A DNA stretch of 64,000 nt from contig NC_003284.9 in NCBI RefSeq assembly GCF_000002985.6, positions 6,386,001 through 6,450,000 of the forward strand, read 5' to 3'. The notes under the pieces are model-generated. The model searched no databases and was not told the origin of the DNA. It saw only the letters and a list, made by a program, of their open reading frames with translations. Shown here piece by piece: positions 32,881 to 62,908 of this stretch. The translations under genes and the position numbers were made by a program. The stretch is from Caenorhabditis elegans (Eukaryota > Nematoda > Chromadorea > Rhabditida > Rhabditidae). Numbering within the stretch: the stretch's first letter is position 1; each line of letters starts with the position of its first letter.

Positions 32881-34108
32881 ACTGTAATTTAAACTCAACT
32901 TTCAAACGGTGAATATCAAAATAATGTGCGTAAGTCATTGGTTGGGCATGAATTCATTAATTAGTATAGTGTTAACAACTTTGCGTGTTTAGTGTTAAAG
33001 AAAAAAGTAAGAATTGGGGGTATTCTACAATTGTTTTTCAGAAAACCAAAAAGCAAACAATTTTTGAAACGTGATATCAACAAGTTGTGCACCTTCAACA
33101 AACATTTCCGCTCATAATGAGATGTTACACGAAAAAAAGCATCAGAATCGATTTCATGGCATATGAAAGCGTTAATGAATAAGAAAACGAGAAGTGTCTC
33201 CTGCTCAACTCATCTTCATTCCAACACTTCTCGCAAAGCCAAACCTAATGAAAAGATTTCTTTCTTTGTCATCGTCGAATTGAAGAGAAGACAACGGAAA
33301 GAGGGGAGGGCGAGAAAATGTATTTTTCTGGCTGCAGAGGTCCGAGAGTTGCCAAAATTGACACAATGCTCAATGGTCAAAAGCAAGGAGCCAACAAAGT
33401 TGAGGCGAAGAGGGGTAATCAATTCAAGACACGCATGAATAAGAGATAGAAATCCAAGATTTCATGTTTCAATTTTGACTTGTAACAAAAAACTTTTTTC
33501 ATAATTGTATGTATATACGTTTCTTTTTTTCACCCAAACCTGAGGCGTTGTTTTTCAGAACCAAAATAATCCCAAACTACCAACTTTCTTAGACCTTCTG
33601 TTAAAAAAAGTATGGATGTTTAAAGTTTTGGAAAAAATGCCGTCAGTGTTGTAAAACACGGAACTTGATTTTAAACTGACTACCGCCCTTTAATATATAT
33701 TTTTGTTATCTATTACCCATTTTTCGTTAATTTAGTTACATTTTCAGTATATTGGTCCACAAAATAGTATCACATTTGCATACTTGTCTACTGAAAATAC
33801 ATCTTAATTAAGAAAAGAACACGTAATAAGTTACAAAAATATGCATTAATGGGTCATACTCAAAAAAAAACACCAGACAAAAAAAAAATATATATATATA
33901 GCTAAAATCTTATATTTCTGGCAAAATATAAGATTTTAGCTGAAAAAAGGCTATTTTTTCAAATGTTTCAAACGATATAGTTTTTTGATCAATGTTCAGA
34001 ACATCTCATAACAGAATTCAAATATCACCTTTTACTAGTTAACTTGCTCTTACAGATAGATTCAAATCATAAATAAATCAATTTAACTTTATTAAGAAAA
34101 AAAACAAA
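32881..34108. other. Intergenic region with a perfect hairpin
   Basis: No supported gene. A 91-codon open frame at 33163-33438 has no splice or start context. A 17-bp perfect inverted repeat lies at 33900-33941 (separate entry). Confidence 0.4.
33900..33941. repeat. 17-bp perfect inverted repeat
   Basis: Arms AGCTAAAATCTTATATT (33900-33916) and AATATAAGATTTTAGCT (33925-33941) are exactly complementary around the 8-nt loop TCTGGCAA. A run of TA dinucleotides precedes it. Could be a tiny foldback element or an RNA hairpin; too short for a standard microRNA precursor. Confidence 0.6.
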
Positions 34109-34760
34109 TCAAAGATTTGGCATGTCTTGAATCTCGACATAAGTTGGAGTAGAGTAAATAGTATATCCATCACGAATTCCGTATTCACGGAGTGGCTTGG
34201 AGTCCTCTAGGTGAGTTGCTAGAAACATTAGACTTTTGTAATTTTTTAGGTAAAAATCTTACTCCCAAAGACAATCCATTGAATTTGTGAAGGAACAGTA
34301 GTCATCTCTTCAATTTTAGATTTTGCCTGAAACAGTTTACATAGGAAGGTTTTAGAAGATATGAAAATTTATAGATTTTCTAGAATTTGAAAAATACTTT
34401 AGTATGATATGTATTTATTTTCAAAATCAATCAAATTTTCATTCATTTCTCTATTCTAATTAAAAGTGATTTGAATTTTTACTACATATGTAGGCATGCA
34501 AATAATTTGTTCCTAAGCTTTAATTAAAATAAAATAATTACTTTTCTGATAGGGGCATACAATAAACACGTATAATACTTTTGGTTGTCAACTTTATCAC
34601 TCGAAGTGTAAAGCTTACCTCAGCTACTGTAGCATTATCTCCAAGGTTCAAATCAATAGTATGTCCTGCATACTTTCTGGTTTTGTTGTAAACGATAGCT
34701 TTAATGTGCCTGGAAATAATTGCGGTTAAAGTTTTGAAAAATTAAATAGAAAACTTACAT
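34109..34760 (-). CDS. Small ubiquitin-like protein
   Basis: Four exons on the minus strand: 34759-34760 (just AT of the start codon), 34619-34709, 34263-34326 and 34109-34218, giving 88 residues. The start codon is split AT|G by an intron with a GTAAGT donor and TTTCCAG acceptor. The protein lines up along its length with ubiquitin: HIKAIVYNKTRKYAGHTIDL for strands 1-2, TVAEAKSKIEEMTTVPSQIQ for the main helix (ubiquitin VENVKAKIQDKEGIPPDQQ), WIVFGTTHLEDSKPL for LIFAGKQLEDGRTL, then REYGIRDGYTIY for SDYNIQKESTLH. There is no C-terminal Gly-Gly; it ends EIQDMPNL, so it should not be conjugated like ubiquitin and more likely acts as a stand-alone ubiquitin-fold protein. A minus-strand AATAAA lies at 34088-34093, just after the stop. 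Specific function unknown. Confidence 0.8.
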
Positions 34761-35128
34761 CTTTATTTTGAGTGGCCGGTCAACTTTTCGAGACGACGCC
34801 ACACTTTATATGTTTTCTAATAAGCTGCATTTTGCACAGAAATTAAAGTGCCTGTTCTGACCCGCAATTATCGTTTTTGTGTCCAAACGTTCTCGAATTT
34901 TTGGATAAACATGACAGTATAATTTGGGCTAATCAAAAACAAATGGAAGAATAGAAAAATAAGAAAATACGAAATGTATTCGTGCATGATGTTAATATTG
35001 GTTTTTATCTGTGTTTAAATAAACAAATACCCATTAAATTTTGAAATGTTTCATTAGAACCTGGAAGTATTGAATATTCGGATTATTTTTTGAACACATA
35101 TAGTATTTTACAACAGGAAACAATTATT
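34761..35128. other. Short spacer
   Basis: 5' flank of the ubiquitin-like gene and 3' flank of the carboxypeptidase gene. No clear spliced-leader acceptor before the ubiquitin-like start; nothing else seen. Confidence 0.4.
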
Positions 35129-38100
35129 TTACAATAAAAACTTGGTAATCAAAACGATAAACATAGAGAAAGAGACCGATAAAACTGAAGAAGTTTTAGT
35201 GGTAGTAATTACTGGTGCAGCAGTTGCAGTTGAGGAGACAGCACCTGATGTTGGAGCAGATGAAACTGGCACAACGGTTAAGATAGGCCCAGTAGGTCCT
35301 GCTGTTGCTACTGAAGGAGGTGGTAGAGTTACTGGTGACTGATTGGTTGGGCTTGGCGTATTTGTTGTTGAGGAGACAGCACCTGATGTTGGAGCAGATG
35401 AAACTGGCACAACGGTTAAGATAGGCCCAGTAGGTCCTGCTGTTGCTACTGAAGGAGGTGGTAGAGTTACTGGTGGTGCTTGAGTTACTGGTGACTGATT
35501 GGTTGGGCTTGGCGTATTTGTTGTGCTGGTTGAAGCAACTGGAGCACTTGTTCCAACTGGTCCAATTCCTTGTTCCTGCAAAACATTCGCTTTGACTTTT
35601 ATGTTGTGGGTTAAAAATAGACTGATCAGCAAATTTTTAAAATTATTCTAATTCAAGTAATGATCCCAGAAAACTTACAAGGAATTGGGCAAGAAGTGGC
35701 TGGCGCACCATACTAACAGCAATTGATGTGTTATAGTTTCCTTGCCCATGGACAAAGTTGTTCATCATTTGAAGAACTGGTCCTGGACGATCAGTTGGTG
35801 ACATGTGTCCGGCTCCCTTGACAGTCAAAAGGTCAATAGTCATGTTGTTCTTTTGGAATTTTTGAACGTATCCACCAATTTGTCCTCCGTACATCCACGA
35901 TCCTCTTGGCTGGTTCGAAACAAACGTTTGAGCAGCGGCGAAGTTGTTGATCATTGACTCGGCTTCGAACATTGAGCACACAGAGTCTACATCTCCGTTA
36001 TAGATTAAAACCCTGCAAAAAATTTATTCAATAAAATGTTGTTTTTCACCATTTTACTTGAGATTATAACCGCTGTTAAGAATGTCGGTGAATACTTGAG
36101 TTGTGTCGTTGTAGAGATTAGCGTAGTTAATTTTGCTGAAAAATAGCTAGCATTGAAAATCAAGAATTACAAACTCACTTGCAGAATCCCCATCTTGGAA
36201 CTGAATCCGGAATATGGAGTGCATCACGGACGTGAGACAAACTTAAATAGTTGTTGATAGCTCCTAAACTCCAGCACGAGTATCCCCCAGTAGCATCAGT
36301 CGACAATGGATCTTGTGGGGCAGTCTGAAATCATATTGGTTTTTCGTTGAAACTTTCTATTGTAGTACAAACCTTGGTAATAGCCTGTGGAATAGAAGTC
36401 TTCAACTTGTGGTCCACGTCGAGCCTGGAGAATTTCTCTTTCATCGCAAATGGATTTGCCTGGTCTCTTGGTGTAACATAGCAATCTTGATACAAATTAT
36501 ACTGATCGTACAATGCCTTCCAGTTTCTGTCATACGACAAGTTTTCAACAAGGTTCGCGCAGTCTTGAAGTGTCTGGTTGTTAGGGAACTGCTTGGCAAT
36601 TACATTGACTCCAGAATCAATTGTAATGTAGTAGTCATAATTGCAGTCACCAGAAGAATCAGCTGATGGGCAGCAAGCACGAAGCTTCTCCCACATTCTG
36701 AAAATAAAACAGTAAATCTAGACGGTGATCATGAAAATCCTACGGTTTATCGTAAATTCCGTGGAAGTAAAGGAAATCTGGAAGCGTTCTGACATCGTTC
36801 ACAGCACTGACCATTCCATTTCCAATGCCCATACCACGAAGCTGAATGTTAGATTGTCCAGCCTGGATCTTTTGAATCAAAAGTCTAGTAAGAGTTGGAA
36901 CGTATACTCCACCATATGATTCTCCAGTAATATAGAGCTCGCTGTTTCTGTGTGGTGGATAGGTAACGAAGAAATCTTCCAAAGCGGTGTAGGTGTCCAA
37001 AGCGGTCTTATCGTCATCCCATGTTGTATCGTTGTTCACGTTCTTATCTTGATATGAGAATCCGACTCCTCTTGGAGAGTCAATAATCAGGATGTGAGCA
37101 GCCTTGTTCCAGGAGTAAATGTTTTCAAAAAGAGTTTCGCCATCAGGGTTCACAAAGAATGGTCCGATTTCGGAGAAAAGTCCTCCGGTTGAAGCACATC
37201 CTGGTCCTCCCTGAAGCCAAAGAATGATCGGATCTCCTTCATTTCCGGACTGTGATTCGACGAACCAGTAGAAGAGCTTGTTTCCTCGAGTTGCTTGGAG
37301 ATAACCCGAGTGTTGCATAAAGTTGACGTTCCATGTGACTCCTGGTAGAGAGAAAATGTGATCAGCCTTTCTACGTGGAACTGTAACTGGAGCTGGTTGG
37401 TATTGTGGAAGAAGTTGTTTGCGAGAATAGTCAAGAGTCAAGTTTCTATTGTAATCCAATTGGTTCACAAAGTTGTAAATCATTTGAAGGGCTGGTCCCG
37501 GGCGATCTTGAGGCACAAAGTGTCCGGCTCCCTTAACCGTCAGTTGATCAAAGACTACCTTGGTGTTCTTGGCAGTGTTGGTGTAAGTGAACTGTTTCCA
37601 ATAACCTCCGACACGGGGCAAGAATTGACCTTGTGTGTAGTTCCATGGCCCATGCTGACGGGTAACAGCCAAACCATTGTCCTTGGCAAGTTTCTCGAGG
37701 AACCATTGATCTCCCAAAAATTGGCAAGCCATATCAACATCTCCGTTGTAGATCAAGAATCTCAATGGATAACCAGTGGCGAAAATGTCAGTGAAAACAG
37801 AAGATGTGTCATTGTGTTGTTGAATATAATTCTCGTTCATGTTATCGTTGCAGTCGGTCCAGTATGGGAGAGAAGTGGGAATATGAAGGGCAGTACGAAC
37901 TTCTGGAAGATTCATATAGTTTTCAGATGAAGCTCCGGAGAAGCAGGTAAATCCTCCGTTGGCATCAGTAGACTGATAGTTGATCTTCTTCTGAAAGTCG
38001 ATAAAATTAAAGAATATATTATGTTGAATTCAAACTAACAGCCTGGTCCACAAACAAAGTAGATGGAAGGAATGGCGAAACATCAGCAGCTCTCTTTGAT

Positions 38101-41100
38101 CGTCTGTTCTGAACTCTGCGAATTCCACTGGCCAACTCATTCAATTTTGAGTCTCCGGCTCCTGGGGCAGTGTAGCAGTCGGCAAATGTATTATAGACGT
38201 CATTGCTGAAAAATAAAAATTTAAAACTTTTGCACGTTTTTTAAAACTCACTCGGTGGTCCAAACATCCAAGAATCCTTGTTGGGTAACAAGTTGACCGC
38301 ACTGACCGGCAAGGGAGTTGTCATTAACTTTAGGCCACACATTTCCAGAAGTGTCAATGTTGACGTATTTAATGTAGTCGCAATAGGCTTGGGGAACAGA
38401 AGTGTCACAACATTTAGAGATTGCATCCCAGTCACTGGAAATTGAACTATTAATGAGTTCAGTTTGGTAAGATTCTTACGATTTGTCCCGTTCTCCTCTG
38501 AAGTAGAGGAGGGAAACAGCGGAGTTGATCTGTTGAATTCCTGACAGCTCTCCATTTCCAATGGCTACACCGACAAGGTTCACATTTTTTATTGTACCGG
38601 TCTGAAAATTATTAGAGTTTAAAGAATTTTTAAAATGAAAAAGTTTTTACTTGAATAGCGTTGATGAGTGCACGAGTAAGTGTTGGAACGTAGATTCCAC
38701 CATAAGACTCTCCAGTGATGTAGAATGGACGGTTTTGGTATTCTGGGAACTTGTTGAAGAAGCTAGCAAGAGCCAAAACAGTATCAGAGGCGGTCTGAAA
38801 TCAAATTTTTGAAAATGAACTGAAACTCTGATAACCTACATATGTGTCATTGTACATGGTATCAGGTGCAAATTCGTTACTGCGGAAGGAATATCCAACA
38901 TCTCTTGGCGCTTCAAGGAAAAGAACGTTTCCGGCCTTGTTCCACGAGAAAGTGTTTTCGAAAAGAGTTTTTCCATCAGCATTAACATGGAATGGTCCAA
39001 GTTCCTCCAAGAATCCTCCAATCGAGGAGCATCCTGGTCCACCATTAAGCCATAGGATAAGTGGATCATAAGTAGCATTGAGCTGTGACTCAACAAGCCA
39101 GTAGTGAAGGTAGTTTCCTGCGGATGCATTAAGGTATCCAGAATACTGTTTGAAGTTTGGAGTAAACGTAAGACCAGGAAGATTGGTGACTTCATCTTGA
39201 GCCTTAGTCTGAGTTGGTGGAGGTGGTGGAGCATCGCGTTCAGTTGGTTGTCTAACAGTGTCTTGCTCACCAGTCTTTGCAAAATTACCTGCACGGACAA
39301 CCTTGTGGACCTTAACGTGAACTCTGTTTCCATTATGAGCGACTCCAGTTGAAGAACGATTGAGGGATGCAGCGAGTTGTTCTGCGACCACATACGTGTT
39401 CTTCAATGGGTGCAAAGTTGTGTCAATAACAGTAGGATTGCTGTAGTCTTGATTACGGAAGAAGTTGGCAATCATTTGAAGTGCTGGACCTGGACGATCA
39501 GTTGGAACCAAATGTCCAGCTCCCTTGACAGTGATAAGATCAACAGAGAAGCCAGCGTTGTTGTCAAATTTCTTGGCGTATCCAGCGATTTGTGTCATAT
39601 ATCTCCAATCGGCACGTGGCTTGGTAACTGGTAATTGATTCTTGAGAGCAAATGCCTCAATGAACCATTGATCTCCCAAATAATTGCATGCTTGATCAAC
39701 ATCTCCGTTATAGATCAACACTCGAAGTGGATACTTGGAGTCGAGAATATGTTGGAATACGGATGTAGTATCGTTGTGCTGTTGAACATAGAGTCCATTG
39801 ATGGTGTCACTAAAATAACGTTTTAGAGTATAATTCAAACATATTGATACTTACTTGCAAGCGGACCAGGCTCCTGCTGCAGAAGAAACGTGAAGTGCAC
39901 TGCGTACATCTGGAAGGTTAATCCAGTTGGCAGCTTGAGTAGTTCCATAACAAGCAAGTCCTCCTTGGTTGTCGGTAGAAGACGTGGAAATCTTAGCACC
40001 TTGGTCGATGAATCCTCTCATGTGCTCCTTCTTTTGCTTAATGCTCATTCTAGATCCGAAGGCTCGGTCGGCCTGTTGATAGCAGTCTTGATAGATGTTA
40101 TAAACGTCGTTCAAACTGTTCCAGAATCTTTGTTGACCCAAGTCAGCAACCTTGTTAGCACAGAAAGATTTATCGTTTGGAATGGCAGTTCCGTCTGGCC
40201 CAAGGTGAATGTATTGAGCAAAGTTGCAGTACTCAAACCATTGAGAGCTGGTCTTTGTCTGATTGCAACATGGCTGCAGGGAATCAAAGTCACTGAAAAA
40301 CACAAGATTAATCTTAAAATTTGATTGAATGTGCGCACTCTTTGCTGAAAAGCCCGTGGAAGTAACTCATCATGATTGCGGAATTGAATTGTTGGATGGC
40401 AGAAAGCTCTCCGTTTCCAATCGACATACCAACCAAGTTCAGTTGTGCGAAATCTCCGGACTGGAATTAGAATAAGCTAACTGTGATACAAATATTTAAA
40501 AGTATCATACCTGGATTTTGTCAATAAGAAGGGAAGTAATAGTTGGGACGTAAACTCCACCGTAGGATTCTCCTGTAACGAAGAATGGGCGGTTGATGTA
40601 TTCTGGATAGACAGTGAGGAAATCTTTAAGCGCGAGGTAGGTGTCGGTTGCAGTCTGAAACAGATAAATTCCTTTTCTGAAAGATCATTGTCATTCAATT
40701 ACTCTCTGATCATCCCAGATCGTGTCATTGTTCAAGCTTGGGTCTTGAACTGAGAATCCAACTCCTCTTGGAGATTCCAAAAAGATCACGTTAGCTGCTT
40801 TGTTCCATGAATAAACATTTTCAAACAAAGTTTTGCCATCAGGATTTGGATGGAATGGTCCCAGCTCTGTGAGCATAGCCATAAGACCTGAACATCCTGG
40901 TCCTCCAGTAAGCCACAAGACGAGTGGGTCGGTGGTTGGGTTTCCTTGAGACTCGACAAACCAATAATGAAGATAGTTTCCGGTAACACCATTCAAGTAA
41001 CCCGAGTATTGCTTGAAGTTAAGTCCGTATGTAATTCCAGGAAGGTTCCAAACTCTGTCGGCTTGCTTACGAGTCCCTGTAGATAGTGATTTTTTCCAAT

Positions 41101-44100
41101 TGCGGTCTTTTTTTCATATTTGTTTTTTTTTTTGGTGTTTGCGAAGATGTTACAACCATTCTAAACTACATAGAAAAAATGTTTTTACTTGTTTGTTCAA
41201 TCTTTGTTAAGTTCTGCAATCGAATAATACATCGTTTCCTTTTACGGTACTTTCTCCACAAAGATCATATTACGCGGCATGCCTAAAGAAAGTAAAACGT
41301 TAACTGATAAGAACTCTCCTATTCGTCCTATTTGTGGTAAACTTTCACTGATAAACTATGCAGATCTAAAAATTTTTAAGAAGAACTAGAAGAAATGTTG
41401 CGACAGCACTTTTATTGTCATCCCGTAGCCCACTGATAATTTTTTGTGACCAACTGAAATTCGCGTCTTCTGAGTCTCTTCACGAGAAGACTTACAAGTT
41501 TTTTGTGGTGGGGCGAGGAATTGGGAACGAAGAGGTGTAGCGGTCAGATCGTACGGTACTTGATTACTGTATCCACCATTAGTATTGTACAAATAGTTAT
41601 AGAAGATTTGAAGAGCTGGTCCTGGTCTGTCCATTGGCACCATATGTCCGGCACCTTTCACAGTCAAGAGATCGATGCTGAATTGCTGATAGTTCCATGA
41701 TTTGAGATATCCGGCAAGTGTTGGAATGTATTTGTTCTGAGTACCCGCGCGAGTGAAATTCCATTGTTGACGGGGTGTTGTGAGAGTCATTTGATAAGAA
41801 ACAGTGGCCAAGTTCTCAACGAACCACTGATCTCCCAAATAGTTGCAGGCAAGATCGACGTCTCCGTTATAAATGAGAACCTTCAATGGGTATCCAGAAT
41901 CAACGAGAAATTGGAACACTGGGGTGGTGTCTGGGTATTGTTGAATGTAATACTTAGCGTTGATATCGTCACTGCATTCTTGCCAGACTGGGGCAGCGGC
42001 AGGAATGTGAAGAGCGCTACGAACATCGGTACGTCCAAGCCAAGCGGTGGTAGCATCATCAATATAGCATGGATAGTTGTTGAGAGCATCAGTCGACATC
42101 TTGTTGTACAACGACTAGAAATAAAAATTTTTGTGTTTTTATTTTAAATTACTGACTTACCCCTTGATCAATGAATGGATTGAAACCGTTGCTGAAAAGA
42201 TTGTAGGCGTCATTGGCTCCAGTGGTAGAAAGAGTGGTTCTCATGATCTTTCTCATTGTTTGTTGATGAACCTTTGCATGTCTCTCTTCGGCTGCTCCGA
42301 AGACTGAAGAATCAAAATTGTAACAATCCTGGTACGAGTTGTAGACGTCATTGCTGAAAAAGGTTGACCTTTAAATTAAAAGAAGGGTTTTTCCATACTA
42401 TGTTTCCCAAATGGAGTTCAATGAGAGGTTGATAACCATCTTTCCACAGGCAATAGCTTGAGCGTCATTTGTGTCATTTCTCGGAGATGGATTTCCAAAG
42501 TTGTCGAACACAACATACTGAAATGTACCTAATGAATAGAATTAAAAATAAGAAACGAACCTTGGAATAATCGCAGTCAACCAGTGGATTGTTCAAAGTA
42601 TCTGGGCAACATTGGCGAAGGTTCTCCCATTGTCTGAAAGGATATTCATTTAAAAGGTTAGTACACGGTGTTTGCAGATATGGCGGAGAATACCGGCCTT
42701 ACGGGCCATGTTAATGTGCATGTGTTCAAAACAGAAAGTATGTATAGCCCATTTGTGAAAAAGTGATACCAGGTGTCAATTATTTTTTAATACACCTTTG
42801 ATTTTTCTGTATACTTTATAATTTGAAATTTCATAACATTCTTTTTCAACAACAAATGAATAAATCTTTAAAAGGACATGCGAAAACTTTACGAAATTAC
42901 GATATAAATAGGAAAACGTGCGTAGGAAGAAAACAACTTCCGTTAACCATGCATATTCTCAACACCCGTTTTGGCAAACAACTCTTATCCGTGTCCTACT
43001 AAATCTTTCAATTTTGTGTTTTATTATATAACTCCAACGAGTATGTGAGCTCAAAAATTTACTTACGTTGTTCCAAGCATTCCTCTGTAGTAGAGAAGAT
43101 CAATTCCTGAGTTGGTAAGATGCTTACGACTCAAAGCTCCATTTCCAACAGCAAAACCTTTCAGATTGATGTATGGCGTGGTATTGTTTTGGATCATCTG
43201 AACGACGAGCTTGGTAAGGGTTGGAACGTAAACTCCTCCGTATGACTCTCCAGTGATATAGAAATCTCTTCCCTGATATTCAGGGAATCTTTGGAAAAAT
43301 TGAACCAAGGCAAGAGCATTATCAGTTGCAGTCTTGTCGTCGTTGTAAAGAAGATCTGGAGTAGCGCTTTTTTCTCTGTAGGAGAAACCAACATCTCTTG
43401 GGGACTCCAGGAACAGAACATTTGCAGCCTTATTCCAGGAATTCACATTTTCAATTACAGTGACGCCATCCTTTTGAATTCTGTATGGTCCATTCTCGCT
43501 GAGTAGTCCTAGAAGTGATGAGCATCCTGGACCACCATTGAGCCAAAGAACGATTGGAGCTGTTTGTGGGTTTGTTTGAGATTCCACAAGCCTAAAATTC
43601 AGAAAAATTTCCCTTTTTGCTTCTTGATTTATTATTATTCTCTCTAGACACTTTCGGCAGCAGCGCATTGTCACTCTATTATCGTCAGAAAACGATTTTC
43701 TGACGAAATTCATGATAATGAGTTAAGCACTACAAAGTTTGATAGCACAATCGTCGTCATGAATTAAAGTTTCAATCGTTTAGTACTGCTTATCATCAGT
43801 ACGGTGTTAAATGATTTATTCCCGCTTACGAGCAGATCATCTTTAAAGATTTTCACACTTGGTGTCCATTGGAATTGTATATTTGCTTACAGTCCAAAAA
43901 AGAATTAAATGCAAAATGAAAGCTAGGAAACTAAAAATATGTTATAATAAAATATGGAGAAATAATAACTTATATCGATAAATTTGAGACAAAGCTATTG
44001 AATTGTGAGACTAACTAAAAAAGAAGGGAGTGCATAAATGTTTATAGAAAACAGTTCAACTTCAGATTTATATTTATCTTATACTATATCAATAATTCTG

Positions 44101-44473
44101 GTTTTTAAAATAAAAATTATTGATGCTCACTCGAGTTATATAACGTTGAAGCTTAGGTACTTATTTGGTTGAAATCGAAAAAAAACTTTTTAGAGTTTAT
44201 ACCTCTTCCAGGCTTGTTAAAAATGGAAAAATGTGTTAAATTTTGTTATATTTTCTGAATGCAGTTTACAAGCTTTACACTTTGAAAAAAAACTAACCAA
44301 TAATGAAGATGATTTCCTTGAGATCCGTCCAAATATCCGGAATATTGCTTGAACGTTGGAGTGAATGATAATCCGGGAAGATCGTTAACGAGATCGGTGT
44401 CCTTGCTCGCAATCCGTGAGGGAGCTGCTAGCGCAGCGCCCAGAAGGCAAAGGATGCCCAGTGATCGGAGCAT
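35129..44473 (-). CDS. Four-domain serine carboxypeptidase, surface-anchored
   Basis: Twenty-one minus-strand exons join in frame from ATG 44473 to stop 35129, giving 2314 residues (C. elegans K10C2.1 as I recall). A signal peptide opens it ([19 protein letters not shown]); an in-frame ATG at 44518 would add 15 residues and bury it. Four S10 peptidase domains follow at about 31-555, 579-1060, 1137-1645 and 1670-2160. Each keeps the full triad: GESYGG serine near 175, 723, 1281 and 1814; LIYNGDVD aspartate near 449, 965, 1542 and 2064; KGAGH histidine near 519, 1026, 1613 and 2124. The carboxylate-binding [10 protein letters not shown] loop is intact in domains 1 and 3, [10 protein letters not shown] in 2 and [10 protein letters not shown] in 4. 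A Ser/Thr/Pro stalk (2167-2290) and a terminal hydrophobic stretch with no cytoplasmic tail ([14 protein letters not shown]) suggest GPI anchoring. A TGATAAG motif lies at 44519-44525, between that upstream ATG and the upstream flank. Likely releases C-terminal residues from peptides in the gut lumen or lysosome. Confidence 0.92.
35228..35512. repeat. Tandem duplication in the carboxypeptidase stalk
   Basis: A unit of 138 bp occurs twice in direct order. The block starting TTGAGGAGACAGCACCTGAT at 35230 recurs at 35368 with no difference that I can see over at least 108 bp, and the flanking GATTGGTTGGGCTTGGCGTA also occurs twice. The unit is 46 codons, so the frame is kept. It encodes the Ser/Thr/Pro stalk. 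Confidence 0.9.
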
Positions 44474-44518
44474 TACCGGGTTTTCCGGGTGAGCGTCCGA
44501 TTGAGAATGAGCTACCAT

Positions 44519-44525
44519 CTTATCA
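44519..44525 (-). promoter_or_regulatory. GATA-type motif at the carboxypeptidase 5' end
   Basis: TGATAAG on the minus strand, about 46 bp upstream of the chosen ATG. Nematode gut genes are usually driven through TGATAA sites bound by ELT-2-type GATA factors. A single site is weak evidence. Confidence 0.4.
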
Positions 44526-44878
44526 CTCGGTTAGGGTCTTCACCCTACCCTACCCGGCTCCGCCCAAATTTTACCTTTTAATGACGCCAGGTGCTGTGTA
44601 CTTTTCGCCTCTTTGGAGTTTTTTGTCAGTGTGAGTTATGCATGGCGATGCTTATTGAGTTCAGTACAAAGTTAAAAACTGTGAATACAATTTATTAAAC
44701 AATTGTTCTACATTTCAATGCAGCAGTTATACAATGCTCAAAACTAATAAAAACAACGAAACAATAAAACAAAACTTTTAAAGCATTCGAGTATGTTGTC
44801 TCGAATAAATATTTGACTTCCAAAGCGGGCAGCTGCTCAATTTTCCGCGACATCCAAAAGTAGTTAACCTGGAAATTA
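44526..44878. other. Spacer between the carboxypeptidase and the receptor-like gene
   Basis: Upstream of the carboxypeptidase there is a GC-rich run (44527-44570, CCCTACCCTACCCGGCTCCG). At 44822-44868 a minus-strand stretch is open after a TTTCCAG acceptor and could be an alternative 3' exon of the receptor-like gene. Confidence 0.35.
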
Positions 44879-47788
44879 TCATATAATCTGTGATGCCACT
44901 TGTACTCCTACCAATGAGTTTATCGCAGGCGTGATAAATTGCAAGTCGAACAATCGTAAAGATGCAATTTTCAACTTTTCCAACTGAAACCTTGTTAATT
45001 TTTCAAGAGTTTGATTTTCTGATTTTTTGCAAAATACAATAAAAGCAAAGAAACGATTTAAAAAATTTATATATTTGATCTCACTATCATTGTTTACCTC
45101 AGAGTTTGCGTAGGAGCAAACTAGGAATAAAATGCAAAATGGTGTAGAAATGAACGCAAAAACTGTAATTGACATCATGTTTTTCAGAATCAGGAGTAAA
45201 CAATATGTAATCAGTATCAGCCACAAAAGCAGAATAACTGATACTTTTCGGTTGTGCAGTTGAAGGCAAATCGTGATATCCTAAAATTGTTACACCATTT
45301 CTAATTGTTACAATTTTAATGTTTTAAAACGAAAAAAATTGACCATTTATTTGTGACAAGGTTCCAGCATCTACATCTTGAATTTTGGTTGACTTCGGAC
45401 ATTTCACGATTTTAAAATGGTCCAAAACTATCGAATTTCGTAAAAAACACATCTTGAAACTTTTTCAAAAACGCAATATTCTGAATTTTGTCTACTTGAC
45501 AATTTGAAATTCAATAATTGTTTAAAGTGTCCTCCTAAAATAAAAAGTAATCCATTTTTGTAGCAAAAACCTAGCATATATTATTTGAAATATTCTAATA
45601 TTTTTTCTAATCGCAGAATGATTTGTTCTTAGCATACAATAAGTATTTTTGCGTTAACATGTCACAGTGTCACAAAATCAATTTTTCTTGTCAAAGCATA
45701 ATTTTGCAATGAACACTGAATAACAAATAGAAAATTATAACAGTGCTCAACCTACAACTATGTTTAGCAATTTGCATTTTATTGGATCATTCTTTGTATG
45801 TTTTCATTTTTGGTATGTTCTTATTCTTGGTGTGTACTTTTTCTGCAAGTATTTAGAAAAGACTGACTAGATCTAAGGTTGATGGAATTGTTTGAGCACG
45901 GCGACGGGGCTAAAAAGTTGTTTTTGAAATAGTTGGAATATTTCTTAAAACGGTGAATATGTCGCATTTCCGTGAAAGATCTTGACCTCCTCACTGATGA
46001 TAAAATGGCCTTAAAGTCACATATCAACATAATTTCACGTCTTGCCCTCCTCCGATCTGAGCAAATCCTAAAGTTTTTTTCGTTCACATATTCTTAATTC
46101 TATGTCAACCTATGTGAAGTCTATGTAAACCTATGTTTCTCCTATTACAGAATGATGCTATGTTGTATTTCCTCCCTCACCCGACTCTAAACTTGCAAAC
46201 ACATAAGATTCTCCGATCCAATATTACACCAAACGAGTACTACAATGTTGCATTATAAAATTCAATTCACAATCTACTAAACCAATACTTCAAATTGTTC
46301 AAAATTTTGGTTATTCCAATACCTTCATTTTTAATGCCAAATGCTCATACTCTGTTCTTCCATTACATTTCTCCAAAAACATTCCAAGTTCGCTCAGTTT
46401 TTCTCCGATTCGATAAACGCAATTTGTCCAGATAACAAGAACAACTACGAGTCTGGTTGTAATTATGATGCATAGAATGACCAGAACAATATCGTAAGGC
46501 GAATTGTTGAAATGAAATTGAACCGATAGCAGAACAAGTGCAACACCGAAAAGTGCTTGCATAGTTACTACTGATGTTCTGAAAATGATTTTAAACATTT
46601 TAAGCGTTCAAAAAAGGAATTTAAACAGGGAAAGTACTGAAAGTTGTGGTAACTTTTTTTGCAAAACTTAATCCGGTTATGTACGAAAACACAAAATTAT
46701 GTTATCTTTAAAAGTGAGGTTGAAAATTATTCAAAAATTTGGTTGTCGCCCAAGTTTTTTATTTTCAAAAATGAGGTTTTCACCGTTTTCTTCTTAAAAT
46801 ATTCAGAAGTTCTTATTGTCTATCAGGGAAAGTACTTCAGCTTACAATTTAACTTCTAAAAGAAATTTATGACGTTTGAAAGCTGGCCTCTAGGTCAGTT
46901 CAAAAAATCAGCGGAATTACATCACATTGAACTAGGAAAAAGTCGATCAGAAATTTATTCAGTGTATTTTTTCATTTCTTTGAAGCCCGTGAATTTGTTT
47001 CAAATTTTGTGTTTTGGACATTTAAATTGTTCGAAAAAAAAAACATTTAAAGTTTAATGTGTTTCATTGTTTGTGGATTTTTCCTATGATTAGTTGAATT
47101 GGTCAATAAAAATTCAAGCATATACTTTATCTTAATATACTTTGTTTTCAACCGGTACTCCTTATTTAAATTTGTTTTTAAAAGTATTCACCTTAAAAGA
47201 GATGCTCTATTGTTTCTTATATCCAAAGGTGAATCGAAAAATCTTGAGAGTTCATTTTTCGTCACTGTGGTCATTGATATGCATGTCAACGTAGAAATTG
47301 ACGAAATACCTGAAAAAAGTGAATTTTGCTCGTGTATTTGCTGTCTCAATTTTATTGTTATCATCTTCCACGAGACTTTGTCAAAGATTAGCTGTTTTCT
47401 GATGAGGATGACGTTTTAGAAACAAAAATCATATTTCGTTATTATTAGTAATAATGCAAATTTTTGAAGAAAAAAAACGAACCAAAAAGTACTGTTCGCA
47501 TATTCCACAAAGAAGAAGGAAACATGAGAACTTGATAAACAGCGTGAAGCAAAAATATGCCAATTAGAATTGTTACATATATTGGATTTCTTGCCAAATA
47601 CAAAAAGAGACAACGAAGAACAGCCTCAACTATAGCTTTTTCCTGCTCTAGTTTCAATCCCTGAAAAAAAAAGTTAAAATACATATTTTGATTTATTTAC
47701 AATTCAAAACTTCCTTAAAACTAACTTCAAACTTGCAATTAAATTTTTTTCTCAAGCTTTTGAGCATTTTCTCGAAGGAGGAAGGCAT
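44879..47788 (-). CDS. Multi-pass membrane protein, gustatory-receptor-like
   Basis: Six minus-strand exons fit in frame: 47726-47788 (MPSSFEKMLKSLRKKF…), 47483-47660, 47192-47309, 46323-46578, 45098-45280 and 44879-44983, giving 300 residues. Six or seven hydrophobic segments are visible, among them IYVTILIGIFLLHAVYQVL, ALFGVALVLLSVQ, IVLVILCIIITTRLVVVLV, VILLLWLILITYCLLLIL and TVFAFISTPFCILFLVC. The last exon ends DLQFITPAINSLVGVQVASQ, in the position where gustatory-receptor-like proteins place their final helix. No soluble domain is present. By topology and a lysine/glutamate-rich inner loop (RIGEKLSELGMFLEKC) it resembles nematode GR/SRR-type chemoreceptors, but these are poorly conserved. 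The protein is short for the family, so an exon may be missed in the introns at 46579-47191 or 45281-46322. It could also be an unrelated membrane protein. Confidence 0.55.
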
Positions 47789-58231: not shown

Positions 58232-60606
58232 CTAATCTTGGAGAAGCGCTGGAGTGAACCCGACTCTTTGCATGATTGGATCGAAATATGTGCAACGTCC
58301 ACGATACAATGGAAGACCGAGAATGATTCTGAAAAATTTTTGCATGATTCAATCCATCTTCTCAATCATTCCTTACCTATCAGTGGTTGGAATAATTTGG
58401 AGTCTACATGTTCCGAAGAAGCTAATAACAAGATCTCTTTCCGTAATTGAGACTGTTGTACCTGAAAATAGAGCAATTATGTAAAACAAGTGGAAGGTAC
58501 ACTGAAATCGACATACCAGAAACAAATCCAAAAGTGAGGGTGATCTTAGTGTTACATGGAACAATTGTTGGGTAGATAGCATTCATAACGTTTGTGCTGA
58601 TGCCAAGGGAGTCAAACACCTGGCTAATGTAAGTTTTTGGAAGTCCAATTTGGGCGGTGGTGGTGTCAAGGTAAGTCTGAAATTTATATTTGTTGATACA
58701 TAAGAGATGCAATAAACTCACTTGAATGTACTTGTTGTTGGAGTTGGTGGCGGATGATCCTACAACTTTGAAGGAAGACATCGTGAGTTGGTATGCATAT
58801 GCAGAAGCCAATGGGACGTATGTTGGGTTTGGAGCACAGTGCACTGGATCAAATCCTCCGTAGTAAATAACTCCGTGGGTTCCGAGATCATCAGTTTGGT
58901 TGAAGTGCTCGAGCCAGATGGAGTAGAATGTGCCCGAAATGTCTCCAGCGTTAACACCTTGAACGAATGGTGAGTTTCCACCGATTTGCGATGAGGCTGT
59001 GAATCCCAATCCCAAAATTCCATCAGCACCCAATCCATCCATCAAAAGTCCGAGGTCGGTAGCTTGCATAAACTTCACGCCTGGAATGGTGATCAAATCA
59101 GTTTTGCGGTCTCCGATCTGGAAAAAAATTGTTAGGACTTAAAAAACAAATTGAAAGTATTACCACAACAGTGTCTTTTGCATCAAATCCTTGGAAAGTT
59201 CCAAGATTATTCTTGTACGTGTACTTATTTCCATATGCATAGTAAGACGACGACTTTGCTTGGTTGAATCTTCTCTTGTTGTAGCAATTATTTGCGGTCT
59301 CTGAAACATTTTCCAGTTTGTATCTTTTTCACTCTTATCAGTAGTGTGGAGTTTTCAAAATTAGGAATGTTATGTGCACTAAGTGATAGTCTTTGACCGA
59401 TAATCAACATAAAAAACGATTTTAGTGCCGATATAATAGGGCAAATTGTCAGCAAAAGCTGACAAAAACTGTCATCATTTCGTGATTATGTTCGAGATGT
59501 TTTATACATTTAAAAGTCGTAAAACTATCAAATTGCAATCAAGAAAGCGATTGGTTGAAACTCACTGCAACTCATATCTGGAATAACAATGTCAGCGGTC
59601 GAAGTGTCAATGACAACAGTGAAAAGTTGTCCTGGTGTTCCCATGGTCAAGTTAGCAACGAAGAAGGTTGAGGTTTGCTCCAGAGTTTGTCCTCCTGGAA
59701 TTAAACTTCAGTTTTGAAAATCTAAGGAACTTGTGTATTATATACCAAAAGTAATTTTCAGTACAAAACAATTCACTAGTGGAATGTAATAGATTTAGAA
59801 AACCATTATTCCTAACAAGGGAAGGCTCTGAACTCGTTATCGGACTTCGTTACGCCACTATATACATTCGATAGAGAATAGTTACAGATGATCACTCCAA
59901 AAATTTAGCTGCTTCAGAGCAGGTTTGATCAAGTTACGACATTTTGAAAGTGCCAAAATACCCCTTTTTAAAAATTCCAAAAAAATCAAAAAAAAAAAGT
60001 TTTTTTCTAAAAGTTGATATAAAATGTTTTCAAATAGTTGGAAATGATGGAAAAATCATACCACACAAGTTTCAGTTCATAATTCTCAAAACAACCAATA
60101 TATAATTGGAAATCAACCGCAACATTGTGTTTGTAAGTTATAAGCTTTATTCTAAGTTAAATACATTCTACTCAATGTCGTAAAGGAAATAATGTTTGTT
60201 CATTCACTGTACATTTTATGTGGCTTCGGGATATATATATACGTGCTCTTAAAACAACTTACCGCTCTCCACTATTATTACTCCCAGTTACGTGTCTATC
60301 CCTATTTTGAATAAAATATAACGTTAATGTACCATTAAATGTTCATGTTCAATCAAACGTGATCGAAATTTTTATACGCTTCGGAAAATAATTCAAAAAA
60401 AAAATCAAAAATAATGCTTAAATGTTCATTTTAAATTTTGTAAAGGCTTCCATTTACAAACACCAAATTTCACTTTATCTGAAACAAATCTGTAAATTCT
60501 CATACTCACCTTTGGTAATGTTGGTAACTGCAGCATGAACTTTGAAAGGAATCACAAAAGCTGAGGTCGAGGCCACAAAGGCCAAAAGCAAGATTGTCTT
60601 GATCAT
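58232..60606 (-). CDS. asp-14: Aspartic-protease-fold protein with altered active site
   Basis: Seven minus-strand exons join in frame: 60510-60606, 59566-59694, 59164-59300, 58722-59117, 58517-58676, 58377-58461 and 58232-58328, giving 366 residues. A signal peptide (MIKTILLLAFVASTSAF) is followed by a short propeptide-like segment and a pepsin-type bilobal body: MGTPGQLFTVVID near 50-62, a flap tyrosine region (YTYKNNLGTFQGFDAKD), GADGILGLGF, then YYGGFDPVHC and YLDTTTAQIGLP. The C-terminus (IILGLPLYRGRCTYFD) matches pepsin ILGDVFIRQYYTVFD. Both catalytic aspartates are kept (about 62 and 257), but the motifs are D-T-S and D-T-T instead of D-T-G. Intron 1 is 815 bp. A GATA-type ACTGATAA (60667-60674) lies about 60 bp before the ATG, consistent with gut expression. 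Gene name from memory of C. elegans K10C2.3. Confidence 0.85.
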
Positions 60607-60831: not shown

Positions 60832-62908
60832 TTAGATATCGGCTGGCAGGACTTTTCCGCGGCACTCTCCGAAACCAATTCTGACTCCATTCTTTTCACA
60901 AACTCCAGAAAGGTTGACCTCATCTCCGTCCTTTAAGAACTTTCGGATTTCTGAGCCAACTGGAACTTCTTTGGCTCCGCGCCACGAAAGCTCGAGCATG
61001 GATCCATATGCACCTTCTTCTGGTCCAGATACAGTTCCTGATCCCAAAAGATCTCCAGCGCGGAGGTTGCATCCATTGACGGTGTGGTGAGCAAGTTGTT
61101 GTTTTAGAGTCCAATACAAATGCTAGAAATTACAGTATTGTAGTTGAGAAAACCTTAACGAGCGTTTATGATCCAATTTACAGTGAACAGTGTAGATAAT
61201 ATCGTTTCTACTAAACTTGAACATACCTTGAAGTTAGTTTTACAGACAATATGGTCCACAGCATCTCCTTCTGGACGGATACTGACGGCCAAATTGATGT
61301 CAAGGGTAAATGGGTCATCGTGATGGAGATATGCTGGTGGAACTGGATCTTGTACTGGATTCTCAACAAAGTATGGACGAAGAGCTTCAATTGAGACGAC
61401 CCATGGAGAAACAGTTGTGGCAAAGGATTTAGCAAGGAATGGGCCGAGTGGAACGTATTCCCAAGCTTGGATATCGCGAGCTGGAAAAGTTTTTTTTCGG
61501 ATGAGTATGGAGCAAACTTGAAAATAACTACTGTTGAATTTTCTTGTCACCAAAATGTCGAGTTTAAATGTTTTTGTTTGATATTTAATTAACATCGTTA
61601 CTCACCACTCCAGTCGTTCATGAGCACAACTCCAAAGATACGATCCTCAGCCTTCTCGATTGGAACACGAGTTCCCAATTCATTTTCTGGACCTCCCACA
61701 AAGAACGCCATCTCGAGCTCAAAGTCCATAAGCTTTGATGGACCAAACGATGGAACCTCAGCTGAAAGCGGACACATTTGCATTATTGGTGCAAATCTAA
61801 ATCTTACCATCTGGGGCCTTAGTTTGTCCAACTGGTCTTTTCAAGTCTGTTCCAGATACAACGATTGATGAAGCTCTTCCGTGGTATCCGACCGGAAGCC
61901 ACTTCCAGTTTGGCATCAGAGCATTTTCCTTTCCACGGAACATGATTCCGACGTTGGTGGCGTGATGGATGGAGGAGTAGAAATCGGTGTAATCTCCGAT
62001 TTGAGCTGGAAGGTGCATTGTAGCATCGGATTGAGCGACAAGAGCCCGGCTTCTGTAAATAAAAACATAAGAATATTATTACAAAGTTTCTTGGTTGTTT
62101 TAAACAGAGTTATATGTAAGTTGTGCGCAAAACGTACAAAGCTTCTAATTACAGTATGAGATTTCAATTTATAAATCAAAAATTAATATAAAAATGTAGG
62201 TTTTTCTCGATTTTGAAATAGATTTTTTTAAAAATAATGCCTACAAGTCGCCAACAAAGTTTAACGATATATTTAAAGTCAAATGAAGTATTTCAAAAAC
62301 TTTGACGGGTTTCCAGGCGTTCTCAATAAAATAATTTTTTTCAGATTGACCGAACATTTTCACATACTTCTATATACATTTCAACTTGCCAACTTGCTGC
62401 ACAGTATTGATTCAACTTTGCAATTATAAACTAACGATAAAAATTAAAACTTGTGAAATAGTTGTTTAGATTTGGTTAGTAGATTATCAGACACACTTTG
62501 TACTACTTTTTAACTTTTTCAAATTTGTTTTGCCAACTTATTCACCTCAAATGAGCGTTATCCCTAAGAACAGCACAATCCTCTGAGAGCAGTTGTTGGA
62601 TTCTTGCACGAGCTTCCAACCAGGCTGGACGTGGCAGTGCCATGAACGCGTTCAATGTGCTCTGCTTGAAAACATCCTGATGTGCCTTCAATTGAGGTCC
62701 GTCAAAAAGATTGGCAATTTCTGCCAAGTTGAGGATTTGATCTCCAATTGCAACTCCAATGTGGCGGGAAGACTGAAAATATTTAGTTTAATTTTGCTTT
62801 AGAAATAATTATTTATACACTTACGTCAGCCTTTGTTGAGAAAACACCATACGGTAAGTTTTGAATTGGGAAATCCGAGTTTTGAGGAACAGAAACGAAG
62901 GATTTCAT
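60832..62908 (-). CDS. fah-1: Fumarylacetoacetase
   Basis: Six minus-strand exons join in frame: 62825-62908, 62546-62772, 61808-62052, 61606-61761, 61227-61480 and 60832-61122, giving 418 residues (mammalian enzyme 419). It hydrolyses fumarylacetoacetate to fumarate and acetoacetate, the last step of tyrosine breakdown, in the cytosol. The N-terminal domain reads [15 protein letters not shown]. Catalytic and metal residues known from mouse FAH are all visible: Asp and His in [15 protein letters not shown] (about 127 and 134), the two Glu of [13 protein letters not shown] (about 200 and 202), the Asp of [12 protein letters not shown] (about 235) and the Glu of [10 protein letters not shown] (about 366). 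The VGYHGRASS loop is intact. Codon use is biased to C-ending codons, suggesting high expression. The next gene downstream starts 226 bp away with its own GATA site, so an operon is unlikely but not excluded. In C. elegans loss of this enzyme damages the gut. Confidence 0.95.

Follow-up and report, generated by a model that had tools for sequence, protein, structure and literature searches.

The gene on the minus strand between positions 35129 and 44473 of the window (the whole stretch of 64,000 nucleotides of Caenorhabditis elegans DNA that was analysed) carries four complete S10 domains, and its product is likely to be a serine carboxypeptidase that is secreted, bears four active heads on a single chain and is tethered to a membrane through a GPI-type end on a Ser/Thr/Pro stalk. 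We take the gene to be K10C2.1 on C. elegans chromosome X (UniProt Q94269), in keeping with the guess made in a preliminary description of this DNA that it would already be catalogued; its interest lies in whether the heads differ.

Gene structure and catalytic residues

In the spliced reading, the coding region runs from the ATG at 44473 to 35129 on the minus strand in 21 exons and specifies 2314 amino acids, counting that ATG. All 20 introns are of the GT-AG type, and the frame has no internal stop and closes with one terminal stop ending at 35129. The Pfam search returned Peptidase_S10 (PF00450) in four stretches with a score of 1638.3 bits, where the curated cut-off is 21.9 bits, and the best stretch spans profile positions 1-420 of 420. 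Both the spliced reading and this search thus bear out the preliminary description, which had seen a single gene of 2314 residues with four complete S10 domains and had named a PF00450 search for four matches as a check. Matches to GLEYA, DUF2920 and CUE scored below their own Pfam cut-offs, were located inside the S10 domains, and were set aside. The features are as follows.

35129..44473, minus strand: whole coding region with stop codon, 21 exons, 2314 amino acids (spliced reading)
44417..44473, minus strand: signal peptide, residues 1-19 (direct reading, judged by eye)
41497..44401, minus strand: S10 domain 1, about residues 25-568, N-type loop; catalytic Ser175, Asp449, His519
39428..41074, minus strand: S10 domain 2, about residues 570-1055, T-type loop; catalytic Ser723, Asp966, His1027
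39209..39427, minus strand: long linker between domains 2 and 3, Pro-rich at its end, about residues 1056-1128, within exon 11
37394..39208, minus strand: S10 domain 3, about residues 1129-1655, N-type loop; catalytic Ser1281, Asp1542, His1613
36744..37990, minus strand: exon 16, one open exon holding the latter part of domain 3 and the start of domain 4
35679..37393, minus strand: S10 domain 4, about residues 1656-2166, Q-type loop; catalytic Ser1814, Asp2064, His2124
35129..35575, minus strand: last exon, with the Ser/Thr/Pro stalk and a hydrophobic C-terminus of the GPI-signal type
35224..35475, no strand assigned: in-frame direct repeat in the stalk, two 114-nt copies, 98% identical, 138 nt (46 codons) from start to start

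Elsewhere in the window, an aspartyl protease gene, presumably K10C2.3, is represented in part at 58422-59138 on the minus strand (PF00026, E 1.6e-15). A single open frame at 61155-61601 on the same strand gave no Pfam match at E 0.001; it may correspond to fumarylacetoacetase (fah-1, K10C2.4).

Separate transcripts for each domain, which the preliminary description had named beforehand as evidence against its reading, are excluded at two of the three domain joints. Exon 11, which runs uninterrupted over residues 928-1251, contains the joint between domains 2 and 3, and exon 16 (residues 1457-1872) that between domains 3 and 4, so that separate genes or transcripts are ruled out at both. The joint of domain 1 with domain 2 alone is placed at an intron (intron 6, with a length of 419 nt, GT-AG, 41077-41495, minus strand), and there the single transcript rests on the splice; no methionine was found upstream of domain 2 in the open frame that holds its start. 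Since this is the one joint to coincide with an intron, domain 1 might also be made alone, as a soluble protein, by early polyadenylation in intron 6, next to an anchored full form. Indeed, the unspliced intron stays in frame for 35 whole codons before it meets a stop, and its coding strand contains a single AATAAA. That AATAAA, however, is at offset 79 and precedes the stop at offset 107, so that cleavage at the usual distance would fall at about the stop, and a lone AATAAA in an AT-rich intron easily arises by chance. The position of the signal ahead of the stop leaves a form with domain 1 only poorly supported, and we consider it very improbable.

The Ser, Asp and His that had been claimed for every domain are kept in all four on the spliced reading, as are both Glu of the carboxylate site and a pair of loop Cys. 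When the 15 S10 domains of nine loci in this one genome are aligned, the Ser is present in 14 of the 15, and the Asp, the His and both Glu in all. One Cys in the GGPGC loop and another in the latter half of the domain form a disulphide in cathepsin A and carboxypeptidase Y (CPY); both occur in 12 of the 15 domains, neither in three, and never one singly. The four K10C2.1 domains are 41-51% identical to one another, and the protein has 21 N-glycosylation sequons. Domain 4 has the longest branch of the four in the tree, and its sequence around the catalytic Asp differs from that of domain 1 and the others; given these changed surroundings, it may be weak catalytically.

A search against solved structures, which covered domains 2, 3 and 4, found cathepsin A chains as the best relatives of each (E 5.5e-90, 6.2e-85 and 2.5e-84, respectively). 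Cathepsin A, the lysosomal protective protein of MEROPS family S10, has the same triad and Glu pair, but it is a soluble protein with a single domain per chain, whereas K10C2.1 has four domains, a stalk and a hydrophobic end, and departs from cathepsin A at loop position 51 in domains 2 and 4. Yeast CPY and wheat carboxypeptidase II belong by sequence to the same family as the K10C2.1 domains; they are one-domain enzymes of the vacuole or the seed.

Loop and pocket differences among the domains

The C-terminal carboxylate site of CPY consists of Asn51, Glu65 and Glu145, and the role of position 51 in that enzyme is said to have been treated by Mortensen in 1994, in a paper listed among the references of PMC6609556. 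In this numbering, position 51 is N, T, N and Q in domains 1 to 4, with Asn in two of the four, and the letters of the differing loops in domains 2 and 4 are as the preliminary description gave them. Neither loop is a private novelty of this gene, however. Thr51 together with Gly58 recurs in a single-domain paralogue on chromosome II (11.74 Mb), Gln51 recurs in a divergent paralogue on chromosome V, and the single-domain paralogues with a T or Q loop have intact triads. Placing domain 2 as sister of the chromosome II paralogue was rejected (AU p 0.00019), so the T-loop change seemingly arose twice; the loop codons of the two differ at several places, which disfavours a recently copied tract. 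Domain 4 as sister of the chromosome V paralogue was not rejected (p 0.303), that row being a very long branch.

The chromosome V paralogue is 22-25% identical to the four K10C2.1 domains, lacks the loop Cys pair and shares Gln51 with domain 4. We take it to be of the SCPEP1 type, and mammalian SCPEP1 carries Gln at loop position 51. According to the available text of one study, purified Scpep1 cleaves off the C-terminal Trp of endothelin-1 and is an active carboxypeptidase (PMC3937211). A Q loop is thus compatible with activity, provided that the chromosome V gene is of that type.

The loop is not the only place at which the domains vary. Positions 60, 64 and 398 of CPY have a role in the S1' pocket, and the corresponding residues are L/S/M in domain 1, M/T/L in domain 2, G/E/F in domain 3 and G/S/M in domain 4. 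As these make four different sets, all four pockets may differ in preference, and the earlier division of the domains into two of standard and two of changed specificity is too simple: the T and Q loops recur elsewhere, both Glu are present in all four domains, and the pockets do not sort two by two.

Perhaps, on the other hand, the heads are redundant: tandem duplication would have raised the dose of enzyme in each molecule, and the differences in loop and pocket would reflect neutral drift that leaves preference unaltered. The recurrence of T and Q loops in single-domain paralogues with intact triads would agree with this, as would the retention of both carboxylate-site Glu throughout, but redundancy leaves the variation at positions 60, 64 and 398 to be explained, and an identity of 41-51% is more divergence than plain dosage needs, although drift would look alike within one genome. 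We regard redundancy as possible but doubtful, and prefer heads that differ in preference.

A second four-domain gene and the origin of the array

A six-frame PF00450 search of the genome (100,286,401 bases in seven contigs), in which only the best candidates were scored, gave at least nine S10 loci, five on contig C2, one on C3, one on C5 and two on C6. The profile is covered once by seven of these nine and more than once by both loci on C6. The other C6 locus, at 14.760-14.772 Mb of chromosome X, which we assume to be Y16B4A.2, also has four S10 domains, and the four-domain arrangement is therefore not unique in this genome. The K10C2.1 protein served as guide for reading this sister gene and the genes with a single domain, so that their exon ends are approximate. 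The sister resembles K10C2.1 in its signal-like start, in the Pro-containing linker that joins domains 2 and 3, in a basic insert within domain 3, and in its Thr/Pro stalk and hydrophobic end. It differs in that Gly replaces the catalytic Ser of domain 1 (GEGYGS), the sole exception among the 15 aligned domains, that the loop Cys pair is missing from domains 2 and 4, and that all four loops have Asn at position 51. Judged by the lost Ser, domain 1 of the sister is apparently dead.

If one head of the sister has lost catalysis, some domains of K10C2.1 might likewise be structural or binding modules and not peptidases, a change seemingly under way in the sister. Cathepsin A offers a parallel, in that the available text of one paper ascribes to it distinct protective and catalytic functions (PMC5078471). 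All four K10C2.1 domains, however, keep the Ser, Asp, His and both Glu, and we hold non-catalytic modules in this protein to be quite unlikely, again preferring four active heads.

The preliminary description had proposed a phylogeny of the four domains against other nematode S10 proteins; the one run here stays within one genome, and in it the K10C2.1 domains do group together, with support of 94/97, which is under the program's star level, and of 96/96.9 in a second tree under a simpler model. The second tree and the joint AU test used 14 rows and 451 columns, with the chromosome V row left out. The grouping bears on whether a four-domain gene was duplicated whole to give two X-linked genes whose domains correspond one to one. 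In favour of such an event, both genes have four domains, the linker, the basic insert and a similar stalk and end, and the positional pairs of domain 2 (p 0.0897) and domain 3 (p 0.199), taken singly, were not rejected. All four positional pairs held jointly were rejected, however (AU p 0.0026), as were, singly, the pairs of domain 1 (barely, p 0.0475) and domain 4 (p 0.0182). In addition to the grouping of the K10C2.1 domains, an intron at alignment column 177 is common, among the 15 domains, only to domains 2 and 3 of K10C2.1. The two genes do have further intron places in common, columns 127 and 319 among them. One clade of all eight domains was not rejected (p 0.251; 0.467 in the simpler-model analysis), the sister's four as one clade was borderline (p 0.0437), and the groups of both genes taken jointly gave p 0.133.

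We set aside simple one-to-one duplication on the joint test, with the shared linker and insert arguing the opposite way, and hold a whole duplication to be rather unlikely; homogenisation within each gene could reconcile it with the grouping by gene. The rejection of one-to-one orthology suggests either parallel growth of the two arrays or descent from an old ancestor with four domains, followed by homogenisation inside each gene, and both fit the sequences. It is tempting to go further and to suppose that two tethered proteins each reached four heads largely independently, K10C2.1 becoming an immobilised array of four preferences that strips mixed peptide ends side by side on a gut or vesicle surface, and the sister coming to hold a non-catalytic head, but we think this combined history unlikely.

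Stalk, processing and proposed working

The Ser/Thr/Pro stalk and hydrophobic end of the preliminary description are upheld by composition and hydropathy. Thr and Pro each make up 20%, and Ser 16%, of residues 2169-2290; the final 16 residues are hydrophobic, with a mean Kyte-Doolittle value of 2.0, and a Lys is the fourth residue from the C-terminus. A signal-like start and a hydrophobic end without a cytoplasmic tail fit a GPI signal, but the Lys speaks against one, and the C-terminal end may, alternatively, be transmembrane. A GPI anchor and a site on the gut surface are plausible. The two 114-nt copies in the stalk may vary in number among wild strains. Tandem Repeats Finder reported nothing in 34000-45500, despite the presence of this repeat there.

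Domain 3 contains a furin-like basic site, RRSKR, at residues 1435-1439 (38091..38105, minus strand). A match to R-x-K/R-R occurs in this domain only among the four, and in one of the other 11 rows of the alignment (chromosome II, 7.23 Mb). The basic site falls between the parts that match the 32-kDa chain (query 2-222) and the 20-kDa chain (query 342-506) of cathepsin A, in the region at which that enzyme is cut, and we predict that domain 3 is probably cut there in the manner of cathepsin A.

Upstream of the ATG, TGATAA, an intestinal GATA site, occurs three times within 460 bases, where the average over the window would predict about 0.5; the excess is a weak signal, because the 460-base stretch was picked after inspection and the 2 kb upstream hold four against about 2.3 expected. 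In the available text of a study of C. elegans secretions, Q94269 and K8ESM2 are two carboxypeptidases among the eight proteins common to the top 10 of three of four vesicle-enriched samples, and neither is named among the leading proteins of the fourth (PMC7261840). Vesicle-enriched fractions can also contain soluble secreted protein. Silencing of cpr-5 partly blocked amyloid clearance, and silencing of the other proteases tested, including K10C2.1, did not, as far as the accessible part of the report goes (PMC12270918); the accession also appears in a list in PMC3343120. Y16B4A.2 is named as an intestinal carboxypeptidase (PMC8705817) and as a cathepsin (PMC9842765) among genes with measured transcripts, in the available text of each. 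The accessible portions of the literature naming K10C2.1, the sister or their accessions do not describe four domains, an exact-phrase search, mostly outside subscription journals, gave no paper on tandem S10 domains, a search for luminal secreted proteins of worms likewise yielded no paper, and activity data for K10C2.1 were not found in the literature. Of the other matches to the names and accessions, a tick paper was probably matched by chance, and some papers name other ctsa genes only.

From these features we infer activity, pocket preferences, cleavage, anchoring and location as follows. The protein would trim C-terminal residues from peptides in an acidic space, perhaps the gut lumen, a lysosome-related compartment or the surface of shed vesicles. 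In each domain, the Ser, Asp and His would hydrolyse the last peptide bond, while the Glu pair and the loop residue at position 51 would hold the carboxylate of the substrate's C-terminus. The heads probably differ in the last residue that they prefer, through positions 51, 60, 64 and 398, and one protein would then cover a wider range of peptide ends; domain 3 would probably be cut at RRSKR, with its pieces staying together.

It is customary to treat S10 carboxypeptidases as enzymes of one domain. With four heads that look intact and pockets that differ, this natural chain makes it testable whether physical linkage or surface tethering improves exopeptidase digestion, and since K10C2.1 is catalogued and belongs to a standard laboratory animal, such tests are easy. 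The chain also allows the study of how duplicated domains divide or lose activity, and the sister gene, in which one head is apparently dead, offers a ready comparison.
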